Shown one piece after another: positions 1 through 24,412 of a stretch of DNA of 31,658 nt; positions within the stretch are counted from its first letter, which is position 1; each line of letters begins with the position of its first letter. Both the position numbers and the translations under genes were made by a program. Under the pieces are notes generated by a model. It was not told where the DNA came from. It did not search any database and saw only the letters and a list, made by a program, of their open reading frames with translations. This DNA comes from a virus, in IMG/VR virus record IMGVR_UViG_3300030108_001725, positions 1 through 31,658 of that record; one strand, written 5' to 3'.

Positions 1-141
1 TAAAATAGTTAATTTAAAATAGTTAATTTAAGTTAAAATAATTAATTTAAGTTAAAATAGTTAATTTAAGTTAAAATAGTTAATTTAAAATAGTTAATTT
101 AAGTTAAAATAATTAATTTAAGTTAAAATAGTTAATTTAAT
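1..141. repeat. AT-only tandem repeat, 19-bp unit
   Basis: The unit TTAAAATAGTTAATTTAAG (19 bp) and shortened 14-15 bp and 18 bp variants repeat without interruption from the first base. Some copies carry A in place of the G (AATTAATT). A higher-order period of 71 bp is visible: bases 15-51 recur at 86-122. The array starts right after the stop codon of the nuclease gene at 132 and may extend beyond the window. It has no coding potential. It could be an AT-rich unwinding or regulatory region, a genome-end repeat, or an assembly edge. Confidence 0.85.
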
Positions 142-1596: not shown

Positions 1597-2121
1597 ATGG
1601 GAGTACCAAAAAGACTAACAGAAAAACAAATTAAATTTGCTCAATTAGTTGTTGCTAATGAAGGTAGAATGAACGGAACCGAATGTGCAAAAGAAGCTGG
1701 CTATGGTGAAGCAGCCAGGATTAGAGCATATGAATTACAAAATCCAAAAAAATATCCTTTAGTTGTAAAATATATAGGTGAACTCAGAGAAGAAAATCAA
1801 AAAAAATATGCTGTGACATTTGAAAGACATATTACAGAGCTTGCAAAAATTAGAGAAAACGCATTAAAAAAAGGTGCGTTCTCAGCCGCAACAAATGCAG
1901 AAGTAGCACGGGGTAAGGCCGCAGGATTATATGTTGAACAGAAAATTATCAGAACCGGCAAGATAGATGATTTGAGTGCGGAGGAACTAGAGACGAGGAT
2001 GAAAGATATTATAGACCAATACTCACCTATACTTGAAGGTGTTGAAGTGAAAGATATTAAAAAAGAAGTAAAAGAAAAAGTAAAACAATCAAGACTTCCA
2101 AAAATAAGAAAACTTAATTAA
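1597..2121 (+). CDS. terS: Terminase small subunit-like DNA-binding protein
   Basis: This 174-aa protein starts with LTEKQIKFAQLVVANEG, followed by a helix-turn-helix-like segment (TECAKEAGYGEAARIRAYEL), the pattern of Terminase_2-type small subunits that recognise the packaging site and load the large ATPase. A long helical middle follows (residues 50-110), then a Lys-rich tail. The frame is open back to a TTG at 1561, but I prefer the ATG at 1597 because TTG 1561 is itself a good -35 and the HTH pattern starts soon after Met1597. It is one of only three plus-strand genes, and its 3' end overlaps the convergent gene by 8 bp. No large terminase follows. A different phage DNA-binding protein of the same fold is possible. 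Confidence 0.65.
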   Translation: MGVPKRLTEKQIKFAQLVVANEGRMNGTECAKEAGYGEAARIRAYELQNPKKYPLVVKYIGELREENQKKYAVTFERHITELAKIRENALKKGAFSAATNAEVARGKAAGLYVEQKIIRTGKIDDLSAEELETRMKDIIDQYSPILEGVEVKDIKKEVKEKVKQSRLPKIRKLN

Positions 2122-2377
2122 TTTTAGTTATTTTAGTTATCCATGGAGTAGGTATCATAGTCCTATCGCCAAATGTTATACTGCCATCTGTATCTTTATC
2201 GTAACTAGCAAAAAGTTTTATGTATTTTTTATTACGTTCATACATCCAGCCTTCATTTACAGGAGAGGCCAACTGCATTTTATCAAATTCTTTATCAGAT
2301 GCCCATCCGGAATCGCTAACACAATCAATCCACTCAACTCGATACTTTGAATATGGGATATCGTTTGTCTGTGGCAT
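2114..2377 (-). CDS. Hypothetical small protein (87 aa)
   Basis: No function recognised. The conserved-looking core runs YRVEWIDCVSDSGWAS, then a WMYERNKKYIKLFASYDKD segment and TFGDRTMIPTPWI, which suggests a small beta-rich domain. I recall similar short proteins in marine phage genomes but cannot name a family. The frame is open up to an ATG at 2434, which would add a very basic 19-residue extension (PRKKPKRKKPQKRKR). I chose the inner ATG because it limits overlap with the next gene and is preceded by AAGAG. The gene is convergent with the terminase-like gene and overlaps it by 8 bp. Confidence 0.55.
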   Translation of the reverse strand: MPQTNDIPYSKYRVEWIDCVSDSGWASDKEFDKMQLASPVNEGWMYERNKKYIKLFASYDKDTDGSITFGDRTMIPTPWITKITKIN

Positions 2378-2516
2378 CTCCAGGACTCTTTTTCTTTTCT
2401 GCGGCTTTTTTCTTTTTGGCTTTTTTCTTGGCATAGTATTCAGGATTGTGTTTTTTTTGAAACATATCCCAAAAATCTTTCTCTGTCATCATACTAATTG
2501 CTAAATCCCATACCAT
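2334..2516 (-). CDS. Hypothetical small basic protein (60 aa)
   Basis: The 60-aa protein starts MVWDLAISMMTEKDFWDMF and continues into a lysine-rich stretch (AKKKAKKKKAAEKKK). No family recognised; the basic tail could bind nucleic acid. The ATG at 2516 has GGAAG about 8 bases upstream. A GTG at 2531 would extend it by five residues. It overlaps the following gene in another frame by 44 bp. It is the first gene downstream of the 2520-2999 repeat region on the minus strand. Confidence 0.5.
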   Translation of the reverse strand: MVWDLAISMMTEKDFWDMFQKKHNPEYYAKKKAKKKKAAEKKKSPGDATDKRYPIFKVSS

Positions 2517-2587
2517 TTTTTCTTCTTCCACATTTCTTCCACATTTTCAATGTTAAATAAGCGTTGGTAATTGCGGCTTTCTACATT

Positions 2588-2617
2588 TTCCACATTTTTT
2601 GTTTTAAAAATGTGGAA
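2588..2617. repeat. Perfect 12-bp inverted repeat with two DnaA-like boxes
   Basis: The arms TTCCACATTTTT (2588-2599) and AAAAATGTGGAA (2606-2617) are perfect complements around a 6-base spacer (TGTTTT). Each arm contains the TTCCACA core of the iteron, so two boxes face each other. There is no GC-rich stem followed by a T-run, so a transcription terminator is unlikely. A dyad protein-binding site or cruciform is more plausible. Confidence 0.8.
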
Positions 2618-2656
2618 GATACTATTGTTGCCTAGTGCGAATAATAATCGATTTTT

Positions 2657-2680
2657 AGTCTTTTTCCACAAATAAAGACT
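2657..2680. repeat. Inverted repeat flanking a DnaA-like box
   Basis: AGTCTTT (2657-2663) and AAAGACT (2674-2680) are perfect 7-bp arms around a 10-base centre that includes most of the exact TTTTCCACA box at 2662-2670. The dyad places this box at the tip of a potential hairpin. Confidence 0.6.
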
Positions 2681-2816
2681 CAAAATACTTTTGAAGAGTT
2701 GCACGCCCAAAAAGTTTTTGAAAAATGTGGAAACGTGGAAAACGCGTATTTTCTTTGTATACCAACACTTCTAGTCAATTTGGTTTTCCACATTTTCCAC
2801 GTTTTTGAAAAAAAAA

Positions 2817-2922
2817 TTCGTTTTATGCGGGTTTTTGACCCCTGTTTCCACATTTTTAACCCAAAATTTCGTAAATTTGACAAAAAAAATTTTAAAATTT
2901 TCGTTTTATGCGGGTTTTTGAC
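2817..2922. repeat. Two 23-bp direct repeats, 83 bp apart
   Basis: A 23-bp sequence beginning TTCGTTTTATGCGGG and ending TTTTTGAC occurs identically at 2817-2839 and 2900-2922. Each copy is followed 5-7 bases later by a TTCCACATTTTT iteron (2846 and 2929). The repeat unit is therefore a GC-containing block plus a DnaA-like box, an arrangement reminiscent of replication or partition iterons. Confidence 0.85.
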
Positions 2923-2999
2923 ACCATCTTCCACATTTTTATTTTAAAAATTTGTGGCAATTTTATGATTTAGACACATTTTAGCCACAATAGTGACAT

Positions 3000-3683
3000 T
3001 TATGTCACACTTTTGTAATATTGGTCAATTTTTTTTAACCATTCCCACTTCCATTTTCTAAACTCTGATCCATTGATAATGAACCGTTGAAAGAAGTTGT
3101 CTGGTGTACACATTAGGATTACTCCTTGATCTATATCAGTACCATAAATACAATTATGCGCCATAGCATACGCCACTAGCTGTATTTTATAATCTTCTAT
3201 CCACTCGTCACGTTTAGGCTTGTTTGAATGCTTAAAATCTATTATACTTTCGCGCCCCTGGTAAATACCACACATATCAGTCTGGCCTGCATACAACCCA
3301 GGATAGTGTAACGTGCACTCAACACCCCAAATCTCCTCTAAATCAGGAAAACCCTTGTCAATAATAGTTTGACCCATGCCCCTCGCTTCTTGCCCCACGT
3401 CGCTCAAATCTAGCACATTGCCACCTTTAAGATGTGTCTCTAAATAACTATGCATCGCCGTGCCCCGTAGAGCAGCCGTATTCTTGATTCTATCTGCCTC
3501 CGCAGCACCCACCCTGTCTTTCCACCTAGCCAAGCTCTCAGCCTTCTCTTCGCTCTGCGTTCCGGATATAATAGTCGTAACACTAGGTAGTTTCTCGTCA
3601 CCAACTTCGTATCTCCTAGTACCATCAATATTAGATCTTACAGTCTTCGGGTAGTTGTATAGTTTATTCCACTTTAGAGTCAT
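3000..3683 (-). CDS. RecB/Cas4-like PD-(D/E)XK nuclease
   Basis: The 227-aa protein shows the RecB-family nuclease order. RGTAMHSYLE contains His78, GVECTL contains Glu122, YAGQTDMCG contains Asp136, IIDFKHSN contains Asp149-x-Lys151, and QLVAYAMA gives the Gln168-x3-Tyr172 motif. These are the metal and DNA ligands of Cas4, AddB and lambda-type exonucleases. Cas4-type iron-sulfur cysteines are not evident. In phages of this kind it probably trims DNA ends during replication or recombination, or degrades host DNA. It lies one base from the upstream gene. The start has only a weak Shine-Dalgarno sequence. The repeat-rich candidate origin lies directly downstream of its stop. Confidence 0.85.
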   Translation of the reverse strand: MTLKWNKLYNYPKTVRSNIDGTRRYEVGDEKLPSVTTIISGTQSEEKAESLARWKDRVGAAEADRIKNTAALRGTAMHSYLETHLKGGNVLDLSDVGQEARGMGQTIIDKGFPDLEEIWGVECTLHYPGLYAGQTDMCGIYQGRESIIDFKHSNKPKRDEWIEDYKIQLVAYAMAHNCIYGTDIDQGVILMCTPDNFFQRFIINGSEFRKWKWEWLKKIDQYYKSVT

Positions 3684-3927: not shown

Positions 3928-3988
3928 TTGACGGTCTAGATCTACCGTCCCATTTACGTCCAGATTCTTTTATTTGTTTCTTATCCAT
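3842..3988 (-). CDS. Small basic protein (48 aa)
   Basis: This ORF was read directly from the minus strand. It begins MDKKQIKESGRKWDG, continues RSRPSNDLYKKNYDEIF and ends in a Lys/Glu-rich tail. Short proteins with GRKWDGRSRP and YKKNYDEIF-like cores are, as I recall, frequent in marine phages; function unknown. The ATG shares its A with the stop of the LAGLIDADG gene (TAATG), which suggests translational coupling. The last 86 bp overlap the next hydrophobic ORF. Confidence 0.65.
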   Translation of the reverse strand: MDKKQIKESGRKWDGRSRPSNDLYKKNYDEIFRKNKKKDEGKEANKQR

Positions 3989-4410
3989 TATTCTAAATTC
4001 ATAGTTTCTCTATACTCATCTAACGACACCACTTTATCATTCAATACTTTCAATCTTCGCTTCGCATAGTGACTAATAATCTTTTGTATACCAGCCAACT
4101 TTACATGAGCGTATGGAAATAGTAAACAAGAAACATAATACGCGTCTCTATGACTACAACGCCAACGCCATTGTTTCTTCCAACCCACCGTATAAGCTGT
4201 TTTATATTTTTTTTCTGTAACAGTGCCAACACCTAATACTTCACAAACCCATATCAATATAGATTTATCAGTCATAGCCATCTCAAGTCTAATCTGCCAA
4301 GTTGGATATGCTTTTTTATTATGTGAACGTTTACGCATATATTGTTTATATGATACACAACCTTCACCATCAAATAGCCCAGCAATGTAAGCTACGTTTG
4401 TATCTTTCAT
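3988..4410 (-). CDS. LAGLIDADG homing endonuclease
   Basis: The 140-aa protein has the signature YIAGLFDGEG at residues 8-17 (Asp14, Glu16), a match to the LAGLIDADG helix with acidic metal ligands. With one motif it should act as a homodimer that cuts a long asymmetric site. The rest is basic and aromatic (WKKQWRWRCSHRDAYYV), as in related LAGLIDADG_3-type proteins. It stands free, not inside an intron or intein that I can see. It is coupled by 4 bp to the upstream 72-aa gene and by TAATG to the downstream 48-aa gene. Alternatively it may be a domesticated regulator. Confidence 0.8.
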   Translation of the reverse strand: MKDTNVAYIAGLFDGEGCVSYKQYMRKRSHNKKAYPTWQIRLEMAMTDKSILIWVCEVLGVGTVTEKKYKTAYTVGWKKQWRWRCSHRDAYYVSCLLFPYAHVKLAGIQKIISHYAKRRLKVLNDKVVSLDEYRETMNLE

Positions 4411-4625
4411 TCAGGATTTACTATATCTTGTAATGCGACAATTCTATTTTGTAGTTTTACAATCTCATCTAAATGTTGCTCGACCCTCGTATATAAACCA
4501 CCGAACAAAGCCTCTGGATGCTCGTCGTTCGTCTCCATATCCAAGACTATACGTAACTTTTTTTCTTCATCTATAATAGAATTAAACTGACGTTTAATTA
4601 CTCTCTTTATTGTTGTTTGATTCAT
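4407..4625 (-). CDS. Hypothetical helical protein (72 aa)
   Basis: No family recognised. The 72-aa sequence is mostly helical. It has a basic N-terminus (TIKRVIKRQF), an acidic middle, and a C-terminal heptad-like stretch (VEQHLDEIVKLQNRIVALQ) that could form a coiled coil. The ATG at 4625 has a strong Shine-Dalgarno sequence, AAGGAGG, 9 bases upstream, so this start is well supported despite a 32-bp overlap with the oxygenase gene. Its end overlaps the LAGLIDADG start by 4 bp. Confidence 0.7.
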   Translation of the reverse strand: MNQTTIKRVIKRQFNSIIDEEKKLRIVLDMETNDEHPEALFGGLYTRVEQHLDEIVKLQNRIVALQDIVNPE

Positions 4626-5277
4626 CTTTCTTAACCTCCTTTACTTTTTTTAAATCTTTCCATTTAATAGAATCACTAACATTGCCCGATACCGAAATAC
4701 GAACGCAATCACTTTTAAATGGAAACACCCAATGTTTTAATGATGCCGGAAATATAAACATATCTCCTTCTTCCGGTACAAAAGAATGGTGACTAATATA
4801 ACTTCTTGGTCCTTCACCGTATATAAACGTTAGTCCTCCAGGACCAGCGGATCTTCCTTTGTATCTTTTATTTTCTTCTATTAATTCTTTAGGCATCTTT
4901 AAAAATATAACCCAAGATAACGTGCCGCCATGATCGTGCGGTGGGTTAAAATCTCCGGGTCCTTGAAAGTTTGCCCATAACGCCTCGATTAAATACTGTT
5001 GTCTAAACGTTTCTCTTGTAGCTCCTACCTCTGGTGCCCACTTAGACTGAGCATCTGCATACATTTCAAAGACAGTATGGAAGAAGGGTTGAAACATATC
5101 TATATCTCTAAATCCTACCTCTTTGGTAATAACGCCTGCTAAATTTTTTTCATAATCCTTGCTGCTCGCCTCTGCTTCCTCTAAAAGTTTTTTACGTATG
5201 TCATCTGGTATTTTAAACTTAACCAACAAAGGCCCCCATCTAAACATTTGATAATCTAAACGTATTTTCTCACTCAT
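4594..5277 (-). CDS. Putative 2OG-Fe(II) oxygenase
   Basis: The 227-aa protein has the double-stranded beta-helix pattern of phage iron/2-oxoglutarate oxygenases. FNPPHDHGGTLSWVIFL supplies His114 or His116 and Asp115, EGDMFIFPASLKHWVFPF supplies His182, and Arg193 in VRISVSGN would bind 2-oxoglutarate. Similar proteins are common in cyanophages and other marine T4- and T7-like phages; substrates are mostly unknown. The last 30 residues are a charged tail (KEVKKDESNNNKESN). It is coupled by 4 bp to the coiled-coil gene upstream. It is distinct in sequence from the oxygenase at 490-1152. Confidence 0.75.
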   Translation of the reverse strand: MSEKIRLDYQMFRWGPLLVKFKIPDDIRKKLLEEAEASSKDYEKNLAGVITKEVGFRDIDMFQPFFHTVFEMYADAQSKWAPEVGATRETFRQQYLIEALWANFQGPGDFNPPHDHGGTLSWVIFLKMPKELIEENKRYKGRSAGPGGLTFIYGEGPRSYISHHSFVPEEGDMFIFPASLKHWVFPFKSDCVRISVSGNVSDSIKWKDLKKVKEVKKDESNNNKESN

Positions 5278-5722: not shown

Positions 5723-5880
5723 TACATTACTACTTTTTCAGGTTTCTTTTTATCTTCCTTGCTATTTTCAATAGGTTTTAAACCTACGATTAATGCAATT
5801 AAAGTAAAAACTTCTGCATAAGGTCTATTTTGTAAGTAACTTAAAAGTTTTTGTCTTTCTTCTTGTGATATCTTAAACAT
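5722..5880 (-). CDS. Hypothetical small protein (52 aa)
   Basis: Read from the minus strand: a 52-aa protein starting MFKISQEERQKLLSYLQNRP, with a hydrophobic helix (YAEVFTLIALIVGL) and a Lys/Glu-rich tail. No family named. The hydrophobic stretch may be a buried helix or a short membrane segment. GGAAAGG lies about 6 bases before the ATG. It overlaps the ribbon-helix-helix gene by 8 bp and the next gene by one base. Confidence 0.65.
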   Translation of the reverse strand: MFKISQEERQKLLSYLQNRPYAEVFTLIALIVGLKPIENSKEDKKKPEKVVM

Positions 5881-6046
5881 TTTTTGCCTTTCCATTTAGT
5901 TTTTCCATTTTTTCGTTTACTAAAATATTTATTGTCTGACTTCTACTTAACATAGTGTTAGGTTGTATAACGCGTCTAATTTTATCTATCTTAGTATATG
6001 TATCTTTGGACAACGATACGTTTTTGTATTTGCTTATGTCCGTCAT
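5873..6046 (-). CDS. Ribbon-helix-helix-like regulator (57 aa)
   Basis: Read from the minus strand. The 57-aa protein matches the RHH (Arc/MetJ/CopG) layout. A short beta strand (YKNVSLS, residues 7-13) is followed by helix 1 (KDTYTKIDKIRRVI), a turn with MLSRSQ at 32-37, and helix 2 (TINILVNEKMEKL). RHH proteins bind DNA as dimers through the beta ribbon. It is the first gene behind the minus promoter at 6077-6104, so it may regulate its own operon, or bind the inverted promoter elements or the 2.5-3.0 kb repeats. AAAGG precedes the ATG by about 10 bases. Confidence 0.65.
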   Translation of the reverse strand: MTDISKYKNVSLSKDTYTKIDKIRRVIQPNTMLSRSQTINILVNEKMEKLNGKAKNV

Positions 6047-8283: not shown

Positions 8284-8616
8284 TTAGTTTGCTAGTGGAT
8301 TTGAAGTAGATACTTTAATTTCTTCTATTTGAACTTGTAATAATTCAATTTCTTTTTTGTTAATTAAATACTCTGTGTGACCATGCTCATCATTGTGCTC
8401 ATGTGAAGTATCTATATTTTCTAGTTTATTAACTTTTTCTTCCAATACTGCAATGGCGCTTTCAATTGCTGATGTATCAACAACTGCTTGTTCTTGTGAT
8501 TCTATTGCATCTAATTTAGTTACAATTTCACCATATTTAACAAAGCCACCACCAATTGCTACTATTGCTGCAATCAAAGCTGCTATTCCTGCGAGTTGAT
8601 CTTTAAGTTTGCCCAT
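8284..8616 (-). CDS. Membrane protein with coiled coil (110 aa)
   Basis: An Ala/Ile-rich membrane helix (IAALIAAIVAIGGGFV, residues 11-26) is followed by a coiled coil (IESAIAVLEEKVNKLENI), a His/Glu-rich stretch (HEHNDEHGHTEYL, residues 72-84) that could bind metal, and a second coiled coil. It parallels the 125-aa gene downstream, and the two may be partners in the envelope. A holin or spanin-like role is possible. It overlaps the 601-aa gene by 14 bp. Confidence 0.6.
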   Translation of the reverse strand: MGKLKDQLAGIAALIAAIVAIGGGFVKYGEIVTKLDAIESQEQAVVDTSAIESAIAVLEEKVNKLENIDTSHEHNDEHGHTEYLINKKEIELLQVQIEEIKVSTSNPLAN

Positions 8617-10408
8617 TTTTTAATACCTCTAGTTCATTCAAAAGCTGTTGCTTCTTAAGATTAAGTTCTCCAAGTTTTCTAGCTTTAATTTCCATCTTAT
8701 CATTTTGGATATAAGTTGCAAGACTCTTATCTGCATATATTAACCTACTGTCAAATATGGGTAACTGCTCTAAATATATGTTTTTTGGCTTATAAAATAA
8801 TGTGTTTTGATATGCATTTAAAGACGCTTGTTCACTTGTCATTGCTTCCATTTTTATTATATTTTTTACTGCTAAATTTTTAGAAATATCTTTAATATCT
8901 TTGTCAACTTTATCCATTATTCTTGCAAGATTTTTGACGATAGCTTTTTTCTGTTGTATCTTTTTTTGTTTGGCAAGTTTCTTAGTCTGAACAGCGGACT
9001 TCTTAGGAGTCTCGCTATCAGATTTCTCTTCTTTAATTTCTTCTTCTTTTTCTTCATTAGTTTCTTGTACCATTTGAGTAGGCTCTTCTTCAATAGCTTC
9101 TTCCTCAGTCATTTCAGTAGTTTCTTCTTCTATTACTTCTTCTTCAACCATTTCTGTGGGTGCTTCTTCTGGCATCTCTTCCTCTATTATTTCCTCTTCT
9201 TGAAATGTTTCAGTCATCATAGGCTCTTCTTCTATTATTTCTTCTTCTTGGAATGTTTCTGTACTAAATCCTTCTCCATCCTCGGTTGGTTCCATGAATA
9301 TGGGTCCATCTGATTCGATGAACGATTCCTCATATGAAAATTCCTCTTCTTCAGAAACCATTGGTAAGAATGTTGCAACAAGTTCTTCTGTCTCTTCATA
9401 AATTTCCTCCATCATTTCGTCATCTGCAAATACAATCATTGGGCCATCTTCAAATGACATACCTTCTTCTGTAAAAAATTCTTCATCTATCTCCATAAAA
9501 AATTCTTCAATAAATTCTTCTGCAAATGTAAATGTTTCCATTTCCATTGGCATTTCCATTTCAAATTGAGGTTCCTCGTTAAAAGTAAACGTTTCTTCCT
9601 CAAAGAAAAATTCTTCCATGTCCTCAAAAACTTCGTCTTGTAAATCTTCTAAAACTTCTTCGACATTGTCTAAAGCTGTTGAAGTTTCTGTATCTAATAC
9701 AGTATTGTCATAAGTCATTGTAAGTTTAGCACCTAAAAGATTTGGTCCGCCTCTACTTGCTGATCCAGTATTATTATCAGTGCCAGTCCAAGACCAATCT
9801 ACTTTATTAGATCCTGAATTATTGTAAATAACTTGATCATTGTATTGACCACAGTCAGCTGAAAGACCTGCAGAAGAAGATGTTGGATAACCATTACAGT
9901 TTCCTTTAAACCCGTCTATATCTGTTCTTGTTTGAGTTGTGGTTGATAGCACCGTGCCACTTGAGTCTTTTAATTGAATAGTTATAGTGTGTGAATCTGT
10001 GTTTCCAGTATCACCTTCACAGTTACCAGCTTCATGGTCACAGTTTGCAATGTCTATGTAGTTATTAAGAGTAATACCATTGTCTAACATCTCTTGAGTA
10101 CGAGTATTGTTAGTTAAAGCAATATTGTCTTTAGATAGTGTAGCCGTACCAGTAACTTCAAAATCTCCACCTACGTTATGTTTATAACCACAATTAGATT
10201 GAGAAGTAGGACAGGTAACAGTAAAACCGTTTAAATCAGAGTTATTAGAAACATATCCAGAGCTTCCAGGATTAATTTGATCCGTAGAACTAGAGTTCCA
10301 GTCTACACCATCTCCTGAGTTAGGAAGTAAATTATTTGTTGTTATTTCTTCTGCTGAAGTTGTAAGGGTTAACATCGTCAGCAAACTTATTAATACGATA
10401 AAACGCAT
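8603..10408 (-). CDS. Large secreted protein with extreme acidic tract (601 aa)
   Basis: A signal peptide (RFIVLISLLTMLTLTTSA) is followed by a beta-rich Ser/Thr/Asn domain to about residue 240, with cysteines at 66, 73, 123, 130, 171 and 186, such as a phage adhesin or secreted structural protein might have. Residues 247-466 are almost unbroken Glu/Phe/Met, including a 15-residue repeat (TETFQEEEIIEEEPM-type) twice. A Lys-rich helix at 469-500 and a coiled C-terminus follow. I recall homologous N-terminal sequence in SAR11-type phages, without a function. AGGAG 7 bases before the ATG supports the start. The mature protein should act in the periplasm or outside. Confidence 0.7.
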   Translation of the reverse strand: MRFIVLISLLTMLTLTTSAEEITTNNLLPNSGDGVDWNSSSTDQINPGSSGYVSNNSDLNGFTVTCPTSQSNCGYKHNVGGDFEVTGTATLSKDNIALTNNTRTQEMLDNGITLNNYIDIANCDHEAGNCEGDTGNTDSHTITIQLKDSSGTVLSTTTQTRTDIDGFKGNCNGYPTSSSAGLSADCGQYNDQVIYNNSGSNKVDWSWTGTDNNTGSASRGGPNLLGAKLTMTYDNTVLDTETSTALDNVEEVLEDLQDEVFEDMEEFFFEEETFTFNEEPQFEMEMPMEMETFTFAEEFIEEFFMEIDEEFFTEEGMSFEDGPMIVFADDEMMEEIYEETEELVATFLPMVSEEEEFSYEESFIESDGPIFMEPTEDGEGFSTETFQEEEIIEEEPMMTETFQEEEIIEEEMPEEAPTEMVEEEVIEEETTEMTEEEAIEEEPTQMVQETNEEKEEEIKEEKSDSETPKKSAVQTKKLAKQKKIQQKKAIVKNLARIMDKVDKDIKDISKNLAVKNIIKMEAMTSEQASLNAYQNTLFYKPKNIYLEQLPIFDSRLIYADKSLATYIQNDKMEIKARKLGELNLKKQQLLNELEVLKNGQT

Positions 10409-14004: not shown

Positions 14005-14255
14005 TTAGTTATTCCCCATGAATTTGTTTTTTCTTCTTTCGGTTTTTCTGGATAATCTCTATCGATTGCCATATCAATGTAATGTTTAGCTTTTAGTAAG
14101 TCTTCTTTCTGATTTTTCTGCTTGTGCCTGCACAAATATTTTATAGCGTTTCCTTCTGCAAAGGGCAAGTTGTTTTTGTTTATGAACTCTGATGGCTGTA
14201 TCACCATAGATCTATAGTGAGTTCCTCCTACTTGTTTTTTATATATGTCGCTCAT
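14001..14255 (-). CDS. DUF3310 protein (84 aa)
   Basis: The 84-aa protein matches DUF3310: KQVGGTHYRSMVIQPSEFI, then LPFAEGNAIKYLCRHKQKN and DLLKAKHYIDMAI. This small helical domain is widespread in phages, is sometimes labelled nucleotide kinase-like, and usually lies in replication modules, as here. Biochemical function is not established. The C-terminus (PEKPKEEKTNSWGITK) is a charged extension. It overlaps the helicase gene by 4 bp upstream and the polymerase by 4 bp downstream. Confidence 0.88.
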   Translation of the reverse strand: MSDIYKKQVGGTHYRSMVIQPSEFINKNNLPFAEGNAIKYLCRHKQKNQKEDLLKAKHYIDMAIDRDYPEKPKEEKTNSWGITK

Positions 14256-15790
14256 ACTATTGGTTCTCCTATTGTGTAATGATAATCTGATGATGGTTGC
14301 ATTATGTGTAAATTTTCTTTTGCTCTTGTTGTGCCCACATAAAATAATCTGTGTTCAGGATCTGGATCATCGTATGCTGCTCGATAAATAAATTCATCTT
14401 GTCCTTCAACACCATAGTCTGTAAATAAACATATGTTTTCACACTCTTTACCTTTTGAACCGTGTAAAGTAAGTAGTTGTATATTTGATTTATCCATTAA
14501 AGTATCTCCTCTTTCTAATAACGTTTGCATATATTCTTTTGTGTCTTCTGGAATATGTAATTGTTTCCAATCACCCTCTATTAATAAACCATGATCTTTT
14601 TTTAATTTTTGTAAATCTACACTCGTCTCTCGCTGCACGGTTCTTCCATCAGAATAACCTCTTGCTACATGTCCTTTCTTAACTACTAAATGTGCATAAA
14701 GTTTTTCAGCTTCTTCGGCAGAAACAGATGCTCCTTGATTTAATCTTGTCCAGATTCGATAGACTTCTAATATAGAGTTGGGTAAATGTTTATTTGTTTT
14801 ACCACTAAACCTCATACCTAAAGAATAAAAATGCTCTGAAATATTTAGTAATAATTTGTTCGTTCTAGCCAATATCATCCACTCACCTTTAGAAAAATCA
14901 ATCTCTTCTAGTATTTGATTATAGTGAACCATACCTTCTGCATCTCTTGGTACCCATTTTTTCTTTATTCTAACACCAAGTCTATCTAATATCTTAACAG
15001 CTTCTTTGTGTACAGTTCTTGGAACTCTTCGTGATATTTCTTGATCGTCTCTTTCTCCTTCTTGCAACATAAAGCAATTAGGATCTGCTCCTTGAAACCC
15101 ATAAATAGTTTGATCATCATCACCTGCTATGTAAGCTCTCTTGCAATTAGATTTTATATAATCAAAACACTTCCATTGATGTGGACTAAGGTCTTGGGCT
15201 TCATCGAGGAAGATGACATCGAGTGGAGGACATCTTTCTTCCTCGACAAACTTGTTGATCATATCATAGAATTCAATCATCTTCGATCCTTCTTTGTATA
15301 ATCTTAAATCTGTTTCTAATTGTATTGTAGTATCTACATCTACATCATAATGTTTCTGTAATTCAACAGTTGCACTTTCTATAGAAATTAATTTAGATCT
15401 CGCATATTGTATTATTTCTAAATGTTTGTTTTTATACATTGGATTACCCACCGCATCAGGTTTTGTTTCAAACGATATGTTTGTCCATTCTGGATACTCT
15501 TGTTTAAATCTATTCCATTTTTTATTTTTAAGTAAATAAATGTTTGTATCTATACCGCATTCGTCTTTACCCATTTTATGCATGGTAGATATATGTTTTA
15601 ATTTTTTGTCAGGGAATAATTCTGAGATTCTTTCTTCTGCTTCTTCTGCTGCAGCCTTACTAAACGTAATATATATTATTTTTTGTGGGTTAGTATTATA
15701 CTCATTTAATTCTTTTTTTAAATAGTGGTTTACTAGTCTGTATGTTTTACCTGTTCCAGGTGGTCCCATTATTTTTTTTACTATAGCCAT
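14252..15790 (-). CDS. UvrD/Rep-type superfamily I helicase
   Basis: The 512-aa protein carries SF1A helicase motifs in order: Walker A GPPGTGKT (9-16), motif Ia YITFSKAAAEEA, Walker B VIFLDEAQDLSP (192-203), motif III AGDDDQTIYGFQGAD (222-236), a C-terminal LLTLHGSKGKE, and motif VI FYVGTTRAKENLH. It is a 3'-5' DNA helicase expected to assist replication, recombination or repair. It is shorter than UvrD (about 720 aa), as for many phage versions. It overlaps the primase by 10 bp. It is the only candidate unwinding enzyme in this operon, since no DnaB or T7 gp4 helicase is visible. Confidence 0.93.
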   Translation of the reverse strand: MAIVKKIMGPPGTGKTYRLVNHYLKKELNEYNTNPQKIIYITFSKAAAEEAEERISELFPDKKLKHISTMHKMGKDECGIDTNIYLLKNKKWNRFKQEYPEWTNISFETKPDAVGNPMYKNKHLEIIQYARSKLISIESATVELQKHYDVDVDTTIQLETDLRLYKEGSKMIEFYDMINKFVEEERCPPLDVIFLDEAQDLSPHQWKCFDYIKSNCKRAYIAGDDDQTIYGFQGADPNCFMLQEGERDDQEISRRVPRTVHKEAVKILDRLGVRIKKKWVPRDAEGMVHYNQILEEIDFSKGEWMILARTNKLLLNISEHFYSLGMRFSGKTNKHLPNSILEVYRIWTRLNQGASVSAEEAEKLYAHLVVKKGHVARGYSDGRTVQRETSVDLQKLKKDHGLLIEGDWKQLHIPEDTKEYMQTLLERGDTLMDKSNIQLLTLHGSKGKECENICLFTDYGVEGQDEFIYRAAYDDPDPEHRLFYVGTTRAKENLHIMQPSSDYHYTIGEPIV

Positions 15791-17319
15791 GGTGATTTTT
15801 CTATTTTAGTTGTTCTTGGATTTGGTCTTTCTAATTTAATAGTAGGCATCTTTAATAATCTAATTGTTTTTGTGCCAACTTTAGGTGATGTTTCTTCTGC
15901 TTCAAATAAAGATTGTAATAGTCTTACTGTTTTTTGTTTAGGGTAAGTTCTTTCTGCCCACGATTTAGTTTTTAATAAATACTTCCAAAAATCTTTAAAT
16001 TTAAAATAAGTAAAACCATCGGTATCAGTAAAAGCAATACCCCTCATAACATCTTTTAATTCTTTACCTGGAGTTTTATTTATATAGTCTGCTAGTATTT
16101 CTTTTAGCTGCACATCTAGTTTAGATGATGCTGGCGCAGGAATAGTTTCTAAATTAGCAAATAATTTTATAAGTAGCCTTCGCCACATATGTTTTGGTAC
16201 AGGCATCATTGGTTTACCTATTTGATTCATACACGCCAAAGAAAACTTTTCTGGATCGTGCAGTGTTGCATCATCCACTTCAACACTTTCGCCATCAATA
16301 GATGCAAAGTATATTGGTGGATCAGAATCATACTTTCTAATCTCTGTAATCTCTGGTGTAGGAGCATTATCGCCTACGCCAAATTGTTGTAGTGCACACT
16401 TTTTAGCATCACAAAAACTATGTATAGGCTCATCCTTACATTTATAGTTATACTCTTTACTATCTAAAGAACCTATTAAAGTATTTATTTCTGTTGCATC
16501 TAACGGAGGAGTCATAAATTGTTTGTTGTAAGTAAACATATAACTTTGCCATTCTTCTTTATCTGGATATCTTTTCTTTAAATAAACTCCAACATTATAC
16601 ATGCAGTTGTTTCTTTGACCATCTGGCACACCATCACTTAACAATGTAATTAAACAAGGAGGCATTCCTTTGAAAAGATCTGTTTCTTCTTTTTTGTTTT
16701 CTATTTTTAAATTATTTAATTGCTCTCCTGTTAAAGCTATATCTTCATGTAGTTTAAAAAATTCATCTATCTTTAAAACATTACCATCTAAATTATATGC
16801 ATATCTAACTGTTCTTTCATTTGCATGATAAGGTAAGTTTAAAAAACTACCTGTATCTCCACGATCTACTCTTATATAATCTTGTTTAGGAAATATTTCT
16901 GCACCTGCAAACCCCATTGCAGATGCAATAAGTTTTAGTTTTACTCTCATTACTGTTGCAGGAACAAATTCTTTTGTAAATAAAAATGCGTGCGCTCCGC
17001 CCGACTTAGATCTACAAACAATTATAGGTATGTTTTTTTCTTTTAATTTTAATATAAATTTTTTATGATCAAATGGATAAGTGTCAATATCAATACATCC
17101 CCACTTACATTTGTTTTCTTTATTGATTGGTACAATACCTAATGCAGGATCTTTACCCTCTAGATGTTCTCTCCATAACTTTTTAGTTACAGGATTTGAT
17201 ATTGTAAATGATTTAGTTTTATGTTTACCTTTTTCACTGAATTGATCTGTCTTTACAGTTTGACCGTAGGCACTGTTTAAGCCTTCAAATATATTTATAA
17301 ATTTATCTAATTCAGTCAT
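15781..17319 (-). CDS. Archaeo-eukaryotic-type DNA primase (PrimPol-like)
   Basis: The 512-aa protein has an AEP primase core. CKWGCIDIDTYPFD carries the catalytic Asp77-x-Asp79, CRSKSGGAHAFLF the nucleotide-binding Ser/His (His110), and a third acidic region GAEIFPKQDYIRV follows. Downstream come a PriCT-like helical part (DGVPDGQRNNCMYNVGVYLK) and a cysteine cluster, YKCKDEPIHSFCDAKKCAL (Cys294, 303, 308), seen in TOTE-like and plasmid/phage primases. It would make primers, and perhaps extend DNA, for the family A polymerase. An upstream GTG adds two residues; I chose the ATG at 17319. A stem-loop lies just upstream. Confidence 0.87.
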   Translation of the reverse strand: MTELDKFINIFEGLNSAYGQTVKTDQFSEKGKHKTKSFTISNPVTKKLWREHLEGKDPALGIVPINKENKCKWGCIDIDTYPFDHKKFILKLKEKNIPIIVCRSKSGGAHAFLFTKEFVPATVMRVKLKLIASAMGFAGAEIFPKQDYIRVDRGDTGSFLNLPYHANERTVRYAYNLDGNVLKIDEFFKLHEDIALTGEQLNNLKIENKKEETDLFKGMPPCLITLLSDGVPDGQRNNCMYNVGVYLKKRYPDKEEWQSYMFTYNKQFMTPPLDATEINTLIGSLDSKEYNYKCKDEPIHSFCDAKKCALQQFGVGDNAPTPEITEIRKYDSDPPIYFASIDGESVEVDDATLHDPEKFSLACMNQIGKPMMPVPKHMWRRLLIKLFANLETIPAPASSKLDVQLKEILADYINKTPGKELKDVMRGIAFTDTDGFTYFKFKDFWKYLLKTKSWAERTYPKQKTVRLLQSLFEAEETSPKVGTKTIRLLKMPTIKLERPNPRTTKIEKSPWL

Positions 17320-17333
17320 TTCCACTCAGTAGC

Positions 17334-18101: not shown

Positions 18102-18653
18102 CTATCTCCTTGTTATTTTTGTACTGTTACCCGCGTAAGTTTTAAATAAGTCAGAGGGCATCTCACGTCCAGCTTCAAGACGCTCCCTGACTACTGCTTT
18201 AAGTGTCTGAGCATGAACCCCTATTTTCTGGACTGGTTCATATCCCTGACCTTTTGCAAGGTCTGCGTAAACGCTCGCCTTGTTGTCTTCGCCTCGACCA
18301 AAGGTAACGGTAATATCATTTTTAATAATATCACCTAAGTCGTTGTCTCGAAGCCATTGAAAAGCTTGTTCCTGATGTTCAGGTAAGATGGCAGCACTAT
18401 AGAATTTTTTTATTTCTACAGCCTCGCCGTCTTTAAGCTTTAATTTTGTAATATGCATTTTCTCCATCATCTCAGGTATTTCAAACTGAGATAATACTTT
18501 AGCTTGCTCTTTAAGTTTAGAGACGCTTTTTTCTGCATTTGCAATTTCGTCCTCTAAATTTTTTAATTCTATAACTTTACTAGACAAACTTTTAGCTGCG
18601 TCTGCCTGTGTTACAGATTGTACTCTATCTTTTTCATAGTCTATTTGACTCAT
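18102..18653 (-). CDS. Conserved phage protein with coiled coil (183 aa)
   Basis: The N-terminal 60 residues form a coiled coil (LKNLEDEIANAEKSVSKLKE). The rest is a compact domain ending with IGVHAQTLKAVVRERLEAG, MPSDLFKTYAGNSTKIT, a C-terminal pattern I recall from many T7-like and marine phages as a conserved protein of unknown function near replication genes. It overlaps the upstream gene by 20 bp or less, depending on its start, and precedes the candidate ssDNA-binding gene by 2 bp. GAG-rich sequence precedes the ATG. A scaffold or replication accessory role is possible. Confidence 0.65.
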   Translation of the reverse strand: MSQIDYEKDRVQSVTQADAAKSLSSKVIELKNLEDEIANAEKSVSKLKEQAKVLSQFEIPEMMEKMHITKLKLKDGEAVEIKKFYSAAILPEHQEQAFQWLRDNDLGDIIKNDITVTFGRGEDNKASVYADLAKGQGYEPVQKIGVHAQTLKAVVRERLEAGREMPSDLFKTYAGNSTKITRR

Positions 18654-19020
18654 CTATTTCACCTCTTTCATGTATGTTAAACTCAGTTGAGTAGTACATC
18701 TTTTCCTGCCTATCCCAAGTTAACGTTTTATACTTTCCATTGTTAATATCACACGCAACAGCAATTGCCAAACCTATAACTTTTGGATCTCCAGATAAAA
18801 GTAAATAATCTTCATCAGAAAAATCTTTTAACAAACGTCTAAGTTGATAAGTTATTGGTCCTGGACTTCTTACGATTTGTGTATCTTCTCTAAGAAGAAC
18901 TTTTATCTGACCAAACTTTTGTGCGCCAACAATATTATATTTTGGACGACCTATTTTTGTGCCAGGAACTTCTTGTAGCAGATAAACTATCGGCTCACTG
19001 TTTAATGTTTTTTCTTTCAT
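18634..19020 (-). CDS. First gene of the replication operon (128 aa), unknown
   Basis: The product starts MKEKTLNSEPIVYLLQEVPG and contains GRPKYNIVGAQKFGQIKVLL, SPGPITYQLRRLLKDFSDED, YLLLSGDPKVIGLAIAVA and a Trp/Tyr-rich end. I recall similar proteins at the start of early or replication operons in marine phages; no biochemical role is known to me. The ATG at 19020 is preferred to a TTG at 19029 because the TTG lies within the promoter element. The predicted transcript start (about 19021) falls at the ATG, so the mRNA may be leaderless. Confidence 0.7.
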   Translation of the reverse strand: MKEKTLNSEPIVYLLQEVPGTKIGRPKYNIVGAQKFGQIKVLLREDTQIVRSPGPITYQLRRLLKDFSDEDYLLLSGDPKVIGLAIAVACDINNGKYKTLTWDRQEKMYYSTEFNIHERGEIDESNRL

Positions 19021-19022
19021 GC

Positions 19023-19056
19023 TTGACAATATAATCTTTTACATTTATATTGTCAA
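19023..19056. promoter_or_regulatory. Perfect palindromic face-to-face promoter pair
   Basis: Twelve-base arms TTGACAATATAA (19023-19034) and TTATATTGTCAA (19045-19056) are perfect inverted repeats around a 10-base spacer. On each strand this gives TTGACA, a 17-bp spacer and TATATT: plus -35 at 19023-19028 and -10 at 19046-19051; minus -35 at 19056-19051 and -10 at 19033-19028. Predicted starts are about 19058 for the SNF2 gene and about 19021 for the replication operon. Polymerase cannot occupy both at once, so this is an either/or switch, and the palindrome could also be an operator for a dimeric regulator. Confidence 0.75.
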
Positions 19057-20726: not shown

Positions 20727-21156
20727 CTTTAACAAAATCCAAATCTTTATATTGTTTATTTGATAGGTCTTTAACAAATGTCATAGAACTTTTTTCTCCT
20801 ATTTCCATACCATGATATTTAGTATATCTTTTTTGTAAAGCTTCTTGGGCTGTTACAGTATATAATAGTTTAATGTTGTTGTCTTTTGCCATTTGTATTA
20901 TTTCTCCAATACATAAGTTTAAAGCATTGTGAGCTGTTTTTAAACCTATTTTTTTATCTACCACCACCCACTCCATAAAACCAAATTTAGTTCCTTTACA
21001 AAGATAAAGTCCTGCGGCACAAATAGGTCTATCTAATAATACTACAATTCCATCTGGGGGTAAGCATTCTTTTGGAACAGTTCCAAAATCATATTGTTTC
21101 CACCACTCAACTAAATATTTATAGTCGGTGTCTAGCTTCCATTTTCTAGCTTGCAT
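20719..21156 (-). CDS. GNAT-like N-acetyltransferase (145 aa)
   Basis: The 145-aa protein resembles phage GNAT-fold proteins: an N-terminal helix pair (DYKYLVEWWKQYDF), central strands (GIVVLLDRPICAAGLYLCKG, FGFMEWVVVD), a helix ALNLCIGEIIQMAKDN, and the strand LLYTVTAQEALQKRYTKYHG near the C-terminus. The acetyl-CoA loop (Q/RxxGxG/A) is not clear, so catalytic activity is uncertain. Similar proteins often sit in virion operons of podoviruses, as here. It overlaps the 1088-aa gene by 11 bp. Confidence 0.65.
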   Translation of the reverse strand: MQARKWKLDTDYKYLVEWWKQYDFGTVPKECLPPDGIVVLLDRPICAAGLYLCKGTKFGFMEWVVVDKKIGLKTAHNALNLCIGEIIQMAKDNNIKLLYTVTAQEALQKRYTKYHGMEIGEKSSMTFVKDLSNKQYKDLDFVKDA

Positions 21157-24100
21157 TTATAATATTAACGTTGCTATCACTATCTACTTTTGCATGTATC
21201 TTCCAGTTGTCAAAAAATTTATCTCCTTCTGAAAGTTTTTCTTGTTCATTAACTTCAAAGTAGTCTGTAAATAATATGTCGTCAATTAAAATTCTTCTGT
21301 TCTCAGCACCAAAGACATAAACAGTGTGTTCATCATCTCCTAGTGTTTTACCATGTTTACTATCTTCAACTCTAACCCAGTTGCCATCTTCACTAACCAT
21401 ATGGCTACCTGAAACTTTAATTCCTTTGTAGTCATGTAGGTTTTTAACTAAGAATTTACCTGTTGCAAATACTTTTCCACCTTTAGCAACTTTGTCTCCA
21501 AGATCAACTTGCTCAATTGATTTAGTAGAACCATCAGCCATTGTAACTTGTGTTCCTTTTAAGAAGCAGCCACCGCCTCCGCCGCCTCCGCCACCGCCGC
21601 TTTGGCTTGGTGGTCCGTAATTAGGCCGTGAAGGTGCTGGTCTTGATGGTGCAGGATCTCTATCTGCTCCGCCACCTCTTGGTGTAAATGTTGGTGTAGA
21701 TTTAGGGGCTGGTGCAGGATCTCTATCTGCTCCGCCACCTCTTGGTGTAAATGAAGGTGGTGGACTTGGATCTGGTCTTGATATAACTGATGGTGGTCCG
21801 CCTCTGTCTGGTTCAGGTTCTTCTGACATAATTTGATCAAGTCCAAAATCTAATAGTTCTCCAAGTTGTGGAACTTTTTTTCCGGCTGCAATATCTGCTT
21901 TTTCTTGTTCTGTGTAACCAATATAATCAACATCTTTTCCTATTTCTTCTAAATCATCTAAATATTCTTTTCCTTCTTGTCTAGCCTCAATTAAATCAAA
22001 AGCTTTACCAAGATCGTTTCCTGTATTATTTAAAAGATTTTCAAATTCTTGCATAGGCATTTCTGCTAATTGTGTATTCGTTAGTGGCCCAGATTCAGCC
22101 ATGTCCATAAATTGAGGTCCAACACCTAAATCTCTTTCACGTCTAAGTTCATCTAATCTTTGTCTCATAGGTGTGGGTTCTGATATTGGTTCATCAAAAG
22201 CAGTCATATCAAACTCGTCCATTAAACTAGGAAGACCTGGTTCTCCTGCTAAAGTTCCTCTTGTTGGTTGATCAACCATACCTAAAATAGGATCTCTGTA
22301 TATATCTTGACCACTAATAATTTCTTGATACTGCACCTGCTCTTCAGGTGTTATATTTCCTGATACACCTTGAATGTTTCTAATAGTATCTTGTACTGCT
22401 TCTCCAAATGGTTGATCGGCTACGGCTTCACTTATTCCAAATAATGATTGAGTTCCTTGATATAAAGCTGAAGCACCTGTACCTGTCACTGGTCCTAATC
22501 CCATTGTTTTTCTTGCATCAAAAGCGCTTAATCTGTTGTAAGTTTCATTTGAAATTTTTCCCGCTCGTACAGCATCTTTTAATTTTTCTGTGTTATCAAA
22601 ATGTTGTTGTCTATTAATAGGGTTTAAAGCATCTACAGGAGTTCCTGTTTTTGATGCTCCTTCTGGTAACGTTTCGTAAGTAGGTAGTCCTGCTGTAATA
22701 TTTATATTATTGGCTGCTGGCTGATCCATAACTTGTGGTCCAGATATTTGTCTTGGAGGTCCTGCTATTCCTGTTACTGTTGCTGCTTCTTCTTGTGGTG
22801 TAAGTGTTTCACCGCTTATAAGATCAGGAAGTAAATAAGTTTCAAAATCTTTATCATAATCACTACCAACTCCTAGTTTAGGACTTTCCTGCCTAATGTC
22901 GTCATCTATGTCGTAAGGCACAGCAGGATCCATATCAAAATACTCATCAACCCTTTCTTGTATAGTTTTTGCAAAAGGATTATCTGTATCAATCATATCT
23001 TCGTACTGTCCTGGAATAGGTGGGCTTCTTTTTAAATTTTCAATATATTCTTCAAAAGATATATCATCACCACCACTGTCTCGTATTTCTTCATAATTAG
23101 ATTGTAAAAGTGCATCTAAATTTCTTTGACGTACAGCATCAGCTATCGTTTGTTTCATTTTTGTTTCGCTTAATCTTTTATCTTCTGCAGCTGCAATACC
23201 TAAATCTCTTTGACGTACAGCATCAGCTATCGTTTGTTTCATTTTTGTTTCGCTTAATCTTTTATCTCCCGCAGCTGTAATACCTAAATCTCTTTGACGT
23301 ACAGCATCAGCTATCGTTTGTCTCATTTCTGCCTCACCTAATCTTTTATCTTCTGCAGCTGTAATACCTAATACATCTGCCTCTTTCTTTTTAGCATCTT
23401 CAAGATCAGTTAATGTATCTAATAAATTTGTATCTACATCACCTTTGTAACTACCTGCTTTAACATCTGCTATTTCAGCGTCTGACATATTGTATTTGTC
23501 TTTTAAAGTATTTTCTATTGTACCAATTCTTTTATCGTAAGCATCTTGTAATCCGTAAGTTGGATCACTAATACCAGGAATACCTCCTGACACAGGATTA
23601 TATCCTGCCATGAGACCGCTTTGTATTGTGCCATCTTTAACATCATAAAGATCATCTAATTTATTTTGTCGTGGATCTCTTTCAGGTAACACTGCTTTAG
23701 CTGCTTCAAATATTAAATTTACAGGGCCACCCGCTATTTTGTTAATAGCAGCAGATGCTAAAGTTTTACCCACGTTTATTTTTTTACCAAATAAATCTAC
23801 TGTTTGATTTGCTGCATCTACAATAGCTCCTGGTATGTTGCCAAATGCAGATAGTGCTCCGCTAACAGTTTGACCTGCTTGACCTAGTATGTTTTGAATA
23901 GTGCCTTGTTGCTCTGGTGTAAAATCTATTTTTTCTCTTGGGTCAGCTAAAGTTCCTGCAACGTCAGAATAATCTCCTGGCGCAAACACATCTCCAGTTT
24001 TAGGGTCTACTATATTTCCTGATGTAGGTTGACCTGTTGCTGAATCTGTTGCTGATAAAACATTTGGAGATGTTTCTACAAAAGGCGCAGTTGTTTTTGG

Positions 24101-24412
24101 CGCTGTAGGTTGAACAGTAGAAACAGCTGTAATTCCGCCACCGCCTCCGCCTGATCCTCCTGGTAAAGGCACGTTTACATTTGATGCCGTTGGTGTTTGC
24201 GGTAATCTAGGCAATCCACCAGAAAAATATGCTAATAAATCAGTAAAAGAGGATTGTAGTGTGGGGTCATATTTTACACCTGGAAGTGTTGATATACCAC
24301 CTAACAATTCTTTTCTTGTCGGCGTTGTAGTCGCTAATTTAGATACATCTAACTGTTGATCAACTAAATTTGGATCTGTTACTACAAACGATTTAAAATC
24401 TTCTCTAGACAT
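21146..24412 (-). CDS. Large virion-type protein with C-terminal Hint domain (1088 aa)
   Basis: The first 940 residues are low-complexity and Pro/Gly/Asp-rich, with two polyglycine tracts, three 28-residue tandem repeats (about residues 347-430) and duplicated FTPRGGGADRDPAP motifs. After ten glycines a Hint (hedgehog/intein) domain starts at Cys949 (CFLKGTQVTMADGSTKSIEQ), with KVSGSHMV (His1004) as block B-like residues and EDSKHGKTLGDDEH and ILIDDILFTDYFE downstream. There is no C-terminal His-Asn, so if active it would cleave at its N-side rather than splice. The gene sits among virion genes and starts at the stop of the 993-aa gene. A tail, injection or adhesion role is inferred. Confidence 0.8.
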   Translation of the reverse strand: MSREDFKSFVVTDPNLVDQQLDVSKLATTTPTRKELLGGISTLPGVKYDPTLQSSFTDLLAYFSGGLPRLPQTPTASNVNVPLPGGSGGGGGGITAVSTVQPTAPKTTAPFVETSPNVLSATDSATGQPTSGNIVDPKTGDVFAPGDYSDVAGTLADPREKIDFTPEQQGTIQNILGQAGQTVSGALSAFGNIPGAIVDAANQTVDLFGKKINVGKTLASAAINKIAGGPVNLIFEAAKAVLPERDPRQNKLDDLYDVKDGTIQSGLMAGYNPVSGGIPGISDPTYGLQDAYDKRIGTIENTLKDKYNMSDAEIADVKAGSYKGDVDTNLLDTLTDLEDAKKKEADVLGITAAEDKRLGEAEMRQTIADAVRQRDLGITAAGDKRLSETKMKQTIADAVRQRDLGIAAAEDKRLSETKMKQTIADAVRQRNLDALLQSNYEEIRDSGGDDISFEEYIENLKRSPPIPGQYEDMIDTDNPFAKTIQERVDEYFDMDPAVPYDIDDDIRQESPKLGVGSDYDKDFETYLLPDLISGETLTPQEEAATVTGIAGPPRQISGPQVMDQPAANNINITAGLPTYETLPEGASKTGTPVDALNPINRQQHFDNTEKLKDAVRAGKISNETYNRLSAFDARKTMGLGPVTGTGASALYQGTQSLFGISEAVADQPFGEAVQDTIRNIQGVSGNITPEEQVQYQEIISGQDIYRDPILGMVDQPTRGTLAGEPGLPSLMDEFDMTAFDEPISEPTPMRQRLDELRRERDLGVGPQFMDMAESGPLTNTQLAEMPMQEFENLLNNTGNDLGKAFDLIEARQEGKEYLDDLEEIGKDVDYIGYTEQEKADIAAGKKVPQLGELLDFGLDQIMSEEPEPDRGGPPSVISRPDPSPPPSFTPRGGGADRDPAPAPKSTPTFTPRGGGADRDPAPSRPAPSRPNYGPPSQSGGGGGGGGGGCFLKGTQVTMADGSTKSIEQVDLGDKVAKGGKVFATGKFLVKNLHDYKGIKVSGSHMVSEDGNWVRVEDSKHGKTLGDDEHTVYVFGAENRRILIDDILFTDYFEVNEQEKLSEGDKFFDNWKIHAKVDSDSNVNIINAS
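21647..21753. repeat. Two identical 44-bp repeats, 63 bp apart
   Basis: Bases 21647-21690 and 21710-21753 are identical and in the same reading frame, encoding FTPRGGGADRDPAP twice, just before the polyglycine tract and Hint domain. Identity at DNA level implies recent duplication or slippage. Confidence 0.9.
23123..23374. repeat. 84-bp (28-aa) tandem repeat, three copies
   Basis: Three consecutive 84-bp units, each starting TCTTTGACGTACAGCATC on plus (23207 and 23291 for copies two and three; the first, at 23123, begins one base earlier with a TTT variant), encode DxKRLSETKMKQTIADAVRQ-like units. Two copies are nearly identical in DNA and the N-terminal one is diverged (RLGEAEMRQTIADAVRQ). 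The predicted product is an amphipathic helical repeat, possibly an extended coiled coil or spacer in the 1088-aa protein. Confidence 0.9.

Follow-up and report, generated by a model that had tools for sequence, protein, structure and literature searches.

A repeat array beside terS that changes its word between relatives of a marine phage is probably an iteron-type replication origin

We analyzed a 31,658-nucleotide stretch of viral DNA (hereafter the window), part of a 41,193-base IMG/VR record from a marine phage related to Pelagibacter phage HTVC027P, and found that an array of short sites, with TTCCACATTTT as the repeated unit, fills the gap between an exonuclease gene and a small gene inside a leftward run of genes (Table 1). 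We conclude that this array is probably an iteron-type replication origin. We also consider it likely that the origin is read by an initiator of the phage's own, with the site word and its reader changing together between lineages and the array being exchanged as a cassette.

The array stands out sharply from the rest of the sequence. The core TTCCAC occurs 11 times at 2526-2934, on both strands (8 on + and 3 on -); 11 copies at 2501-3000 compare with 0.36 expected, a count reached in 0 of 2000 dinucleotide shuffles. The longer motif TT[CA]CAC[AG][CT]TT has 10 copies in the array and a single one elsewhere in the 41,193-base record, and in two relatives the motif matches of the whole contig lie almost or wholly inside the array (10 of 11 in G001; 10 of 10 in G002). 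The first-pass annotation had reported three exact and at least eight near matches to a DnaA-box-like 9-mer in noncoding DNA at about 2524-2981. All of these sites were located, at coordinates right to within a few bases: exact TTTTCCACA starts at 2586, 2662 and 2784, and near matches at 2524, 2535, 2611(-), 2726(-), 2734(-), 2793, 2844 and 2927. The stretch is indeed without a conserved gene, and its listed ORFs match essentially only relatives that carry the same array.

We confirmed, then, that the cluster is real, but it was first given the wrong consensus. The scan for TTWTNCACA that the annotation had suggested gave a divided answer: the 9-mer is enriched locally (3 in 500 bases versus 4 in the remaining 40.7 kb), but not over the whole window, where we found 7 versus 5.6 expected and, with up to one mismatch, 108 versus 115. 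Since the count over the window is at chance, the DnaA consensus is the wrong measure. The sites are better described by TTCCACATTT(T), of which TTTTCCACA is the subset with TT directly before. Across the aligned sites TTCCAC is invariant (full information content) and the next four bases are nearly so (high), while the two bases before TTCCAC, which are positions 1-2 of the DnaA 9-mer and necessary for a DnaA box, are variable, with clearly lower information content. The array also holds two copies of a second repeat, TTTTATGCGGGTTTTTGAC, variants of which are present in other lineages.

Table 1. Positions of the array, its parts and the genes discussed, in window coordinates
Feature	Position	Strand	Basis
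Repeat array (putative iterons), consensus TTCCACATTTT, ~420 bases, about a dozen copies of the word	2524..2939	both	motif counts, shuffles, alignment
Two tandem sites, spacing 11, cores 2526 and 2537	2526..2547	+	motif positions
Inverted pair: + site at 2588, - site with core 2612-2617	2588..2617	both	motif positions, relatives' alignment
Variant site TTCCACAAATA	2664..2674	+	motif positions; conserved in relatives
Left arm of the core: pair of - sites in tandem (spacing 8; cores 2727-2732, 2735-2740)	2722..2740	-	
Constant element AAGTGTTGGTATACAAAGAAAATA (RTTGGTATAYA), separating the arms of the core	2745..2770	-	
Right arm of the core: pair of + sites in tandem (spacing 9; cores 2786, 2795)	2786..2805	+	
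Single site	2846..2856	+	motif positions
Single site	2929..2939	+	motif positions
Two TTTTATGCGGGTTTTTGAC copies (2821, 2904)	2821..2922	+	
Cas4-like/PD-(D/E)XK exonuclease gene bounding the array, 3' end toward it	3000..3683	-	phrog_298; weak cas4 match
Small gene bounding the array, beside terS; two allele types ~32% identical	2114..2434	-	phrog_25889
Terminase small subunit gene (terS), near the array	1597..2121	+	
PrimPol-type primase (AEP, PriCT_1, C-terminal winged helix); candidate initiator	15781..17325	-	
UvrD-like SF1 helicase, primase partner; diverges with the primase	14252..15790	-	
57-aa RHH-like protein	5873..6046	-	

The terS, exonuclease, PolA, primase and helicase genes of the window match those of Pelagibacter phages HTVC027P and HTVC023P, and the relatives, which have been cultured, are phages that carry genes for capsid, terminase and PolA. 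The array lies ~13 kb from the primase gene; HTVC027P and HTVC023P have their arrays at about 14.8 kb and 11.7 kb, respectively. A DNA similarity search in a phage collection gave no match. Several other features of the region were noted. The contig starts inside a tandem repeat of TTAAAATAGTTAATTTAAG (window 1-140), and this start is probably an assembly break in the terS-terL spacer. The window's array, TerS and exonuclease are nearly identical in the relative L001, whose small gene (L001:7859-8101 versus window 2114-2434) is only ~34% identical, an allele swap of one gene. An HNH endonuclease gene lies near the array at 3988-4410, and in L013 an HNH endonuclease gene has apparently been inserted between exonuclease and array; genes for 2OG-Fe(II) oxygenases (490-1152 and 4594-5277) flank the array region. 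Farther away are a 601-aa ORF (8603-10408) with relatives in the phage group and no PHROG or Pfam match, and two very large ORFs (1088 and 993 aa; 21146-27393) with no PHROG match, probably structural.

The array is conserved among close relatives. In an alignment of 12 sequences (the window and eleven relatives), most sites have kept their position and orientation. With the window and one near-identical relative excluded, we found that columns within sites match the window in 88% of cases, compared to 72% for columns between sites (Mann-Whitney P 2e-9), and that this difference holds for A/T columns and for G/C columns. In contrast, TTCCAC is absent from the same interval in more distant relatives, which have another word instead. 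We found TTCTACTTTT in L080, L082 and L398; TTACACAA in L075; TTGACAG in L013 and L015; TTGTAAC in L018 and L049; CGTGATC in L023 and L038; GAGGTGAT in L026 and L375; TGCGACAT in L097; ATTGTAG in G068; TTGGCACA in phage 023Pt_psg01; CTAGGAAAA in HTVC023P; and words containing ACAA or GTAAC in L383, L393, L395, L407 and L413. Automatic counting of 9-mer motifs, which misses A/T-rich words such as TTCTACTTTT, placed the TTCCACATTTT class (eight arrays of ten to twelve sites), L015, L049, L097, psg01 and HTVC023P above all shuffles; the remaining arrays, with fewer or A/T-rich sites that are not significant alone in this count, were read by eye.

A common layout persists across different words. 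Nine arrays of four classes (the window type, the L002 type, TTGACAG and TTGTAAC) have the sequence RTTGGTATA, or a near variant, followed at a distance of 26-27 bases by a tandem pair of sites; on the opposite side of this element are one to three sites of reverse orientation. The core with this layout in the window spans 2722-2805. Within the genomes scanned, the constant element is seldom found outside the array.

Comparison of L082 and L084 showed that the array alone has been replaced within well-conserved flanks. The DNA of these two contigs is mostly 71-92% identical on both sides and 46-59% identical across the array, where L084 has the word TTCCACATTTT and L082 has TTCTACTTTT. The array probably moves between genomes as a cassette. 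Since TerS (94%) and the exonuclease (81%) are so alike in the two contigs despite their different words, neither neighbor is likely to be the reader of the array, and exchange of the array alone calls for a reader encoded outside the exchanged stretch.

We compared genes across word classes for such a reader. The product of ORF106 was rejected in this comparison, as was a Pam3-gp32-like small protein (18634-19029), whose unusually strong divergence between two classes does not follow the word consistently. In whole-contig comparisons, the primase and the UvrD-like helicase next to it are the genes whose divergence jumps between word classes. The window and G009 (classes A and B) share 47% identity in the primase and 40% in the helicase, compared to 67-71% in the neighboring genes (PolA 71%). 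In an AlphaFold2 prediction with 56 sequences, residues 1-207 of the primase form a PrimPol domain and residues from about 397 to 502 a winged helix. The catalytic domain is structurally closest to the CRISPR-associated PrimPol of Marinitoga (Z 19.5); the pRN1 and NrS-1 PrimPols matched only weakly in structure, and a phmmer search of the primase against PDB sequences gave no match. The C-terminal part folded alone matched best the TcpK-oriT complex (Z 8.5 over 86 residues, 2.6 A), a score in the range where shared folds are common; TcpK was also the top Foldseek match (E 0.03), and the SaPIBov1 replication initiator is in the structural match list (Z 6.7).

The identity of the whole primase does not predict the word. 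G014 has the window's word at only 64% primase identity, with the segment TYPKQKT...ETSPK common to both, while G068 and G003 have primases that are 94% identical, with the same recognition helix, yet their words are ATTGTAG and TTGACAG. The differences between these last two lie mainly in the wing and the helix cap, and among the pairs compared theirs is the lowest identity of the wing relative to the rest of the protein. At the other extreme, G009 and G087 share TTCTACTTTT with primases that are 45-46% identical, and the similarity of their wings, relative to the remainder of the protein, exceeds that of every other pair compared. However, the wing differs almost as much between G003 and G004, which have the word TTGACAG in common, as between G003 and G068, and primase and array occur on one contig in few pairs among many primase loci, and independent pairs are few. 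These comparisons are suggestive of a winged helix that follows the word in part. We tentatively take the winged helix at the primase C terminus, perhaps through its wing, as the leading candidate for the reader.

If the array is such an origin, a phage-encoded initiator would bind the TTCCACATTTT sites of a core made up, in this order, of a tandem pair, the constant RTTGGTATA element and a second tandem pair in the opposite orientation, as well as the extra sites outside. The initiator would then open the DNA at the array and load the phage's own replisome of primase, UvrD-like helicase and PolA. Between lineages, the word and its reader would change together and the array would travel from genome to genome as a cassette. 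The array has what is typical of iteron origins, namely conserved short repeats in non-coding DNA and a fixed spacing (26-27) around a central element. A turn in GC skew lies near the array in G001 and psg01; HTVC027P and HTVC023P show no such turn, and gene strand confounds the measure.

Neither host DnaA nor TerS, the RHH protein or the exonuclease accounts for the switching of words among relatives and the cassette swap. The earlier proposal took the sites for DnaA boxes at which host DnaA would start phage replication; we infer that its call of an origin is the best reading, but its DnaA part is not supported, and we regard that part as very unlikely. The local enrichment of the 9-mer agrees with DnaA boxes, as does the resemblance of the core to TTATCCACA, but TTATCCACA itself is absent from the record and conservation covers TTCCACATTT, a block shifted 3' relative to the 9-mer, such that positions 1-2 of the 9-mer vary while bases after it are fixed. 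Moreover, host DnaA reads one fixed consensus, whereas the relatives hold unrelated words at the same place. A packaging site (pac or cos) read by the terminase small subunit would fit the closeness of the array to terS in every lineage seen, including HTVC023P with its different gene order. We nevertheless consider this quite unlikely, because the DNA-binding region of TerS does not change with the site: its N-terminal region is identical in the window, with TTCCACATTTT, and in G005, with TTCTACTTTT, and L082 and L084 likewise combine similar TerS proteins with different words.

Sites for a phage or host regulator of transcription or replication timing, rather than for an initiator, are unlikely. 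The use of both orientations, the fixed layout of the core and the constant element fit an origin better, and none of the genes compared was found to encode a regulator that follows the word, even though the array sits within a run of leftward genes, cooperative DNA binders typically have arrays of a single word and the link to the primase is unproven. The suggestion that the array is a partition (parS-like) site, for instance one bound by the RHH protein, is hardly credible. Short tandem repeats are frequent targets of RHH proteins, but the DNA-contacting strand of this one, KNVSLSKD, is identical in phages with TTCCACATTTT (the window) and with TTCTACTTTT (G005) and divergent within the class that shares TTGACAG. 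Furthermore, no partition gene (ParA or ParB) was found among 30 ORFs scanned, and the relatives were cultured as phages. It is highly improbable that the inverted sites serve as hairpins in RNA or single-stranded DNA: the better folding of the minus strand relative to shuffles (z -3.2) arises automatically from inverted repeats of one word, an Rfam search gave no match, and sequence changes are shared by the copies, something not needed for simple stems. We favor an iteron-type origin whose reader is a phage initiator.

These phages belong to a widespread SAR11-infecting group, for which we found no described replication origin in the literature searched for origin terms. If our reading is correct, the window provides a testable origin and a testable initiator, and the relatives provide a natural series of matched arrays and primases in which to ask how a phage initiator changes its DNA word. 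The words would also mark phages able to replicate each other's satellites or to compete in one cell, and the origin swapping of PLE satellites would extend to abundant phages. More speculatively, HTVC023P/HTVC027P-type phages might fall into origin types like plasmid incompatibility groups, with the cassette and the DNA-reading part of the primase diversifying and being exchanged together under pressure from co-infecting phages, satellites or origin-directed nucleases.

Several known systems resemble parts of this proposal. The lambda origin has iterons bound by the phage initiator O, next to A/T-rich DNA, and is thus, like the one proposed here, a phage origin of iterons with a phage initiator; it lies inside the O gene, whereas the array is intergenic and far from the replication genes. 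In PICI origins, a central region is flanked by two sets of short iterons whose words are specific to each element (PMC6092414). Both traits recur in the window, as does the presence of a primase and an initiator, here a candidate one, in the same replicon; the C terminus of the SaPIBov1 initiator is moreover among the structural matches of the primase C terminus. However, in PICIs and SaPIs the replicon is a satellite island, its initiator is of the SaPI type and its origin is next to rep, whereas here a phage genome has its array beside terS, far from the primase, and a UvrD-like partner helicase. TcpK binds tandem 9-mers at the oriT of pCW3, mainly through its beta-wing (PMC6137059), and its winged helix is structurally closest to the predicted primase C terminus, although it is a separate small protein acting at a conjugative transfer origin. 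In geminiviruses, lineage-specific iterons are matched by a variable iteron-related domain of Rep (PMC3174254), a pairing of iterons with a variable initiator region like that proposed here, but in rolling-circle ssDNA viruses. In PLE satellites, origin iterons and the DNA-binding domain of the initiator covary and swap as a module, as was experimentally tested, and the origin-directed ICP1 nuclease Odn may select for change (PMC8263062); no Odn-like nuclease was identified here. The PLE initiator is of the RepA_N type and its origin has three semi-palindromic iterons of ~30 bp, compared to asymmetric sites of ~11 bp and a PrimPol-type candidate here, but in layout and in word switching the PLE RepA/ori system is like the array described here.
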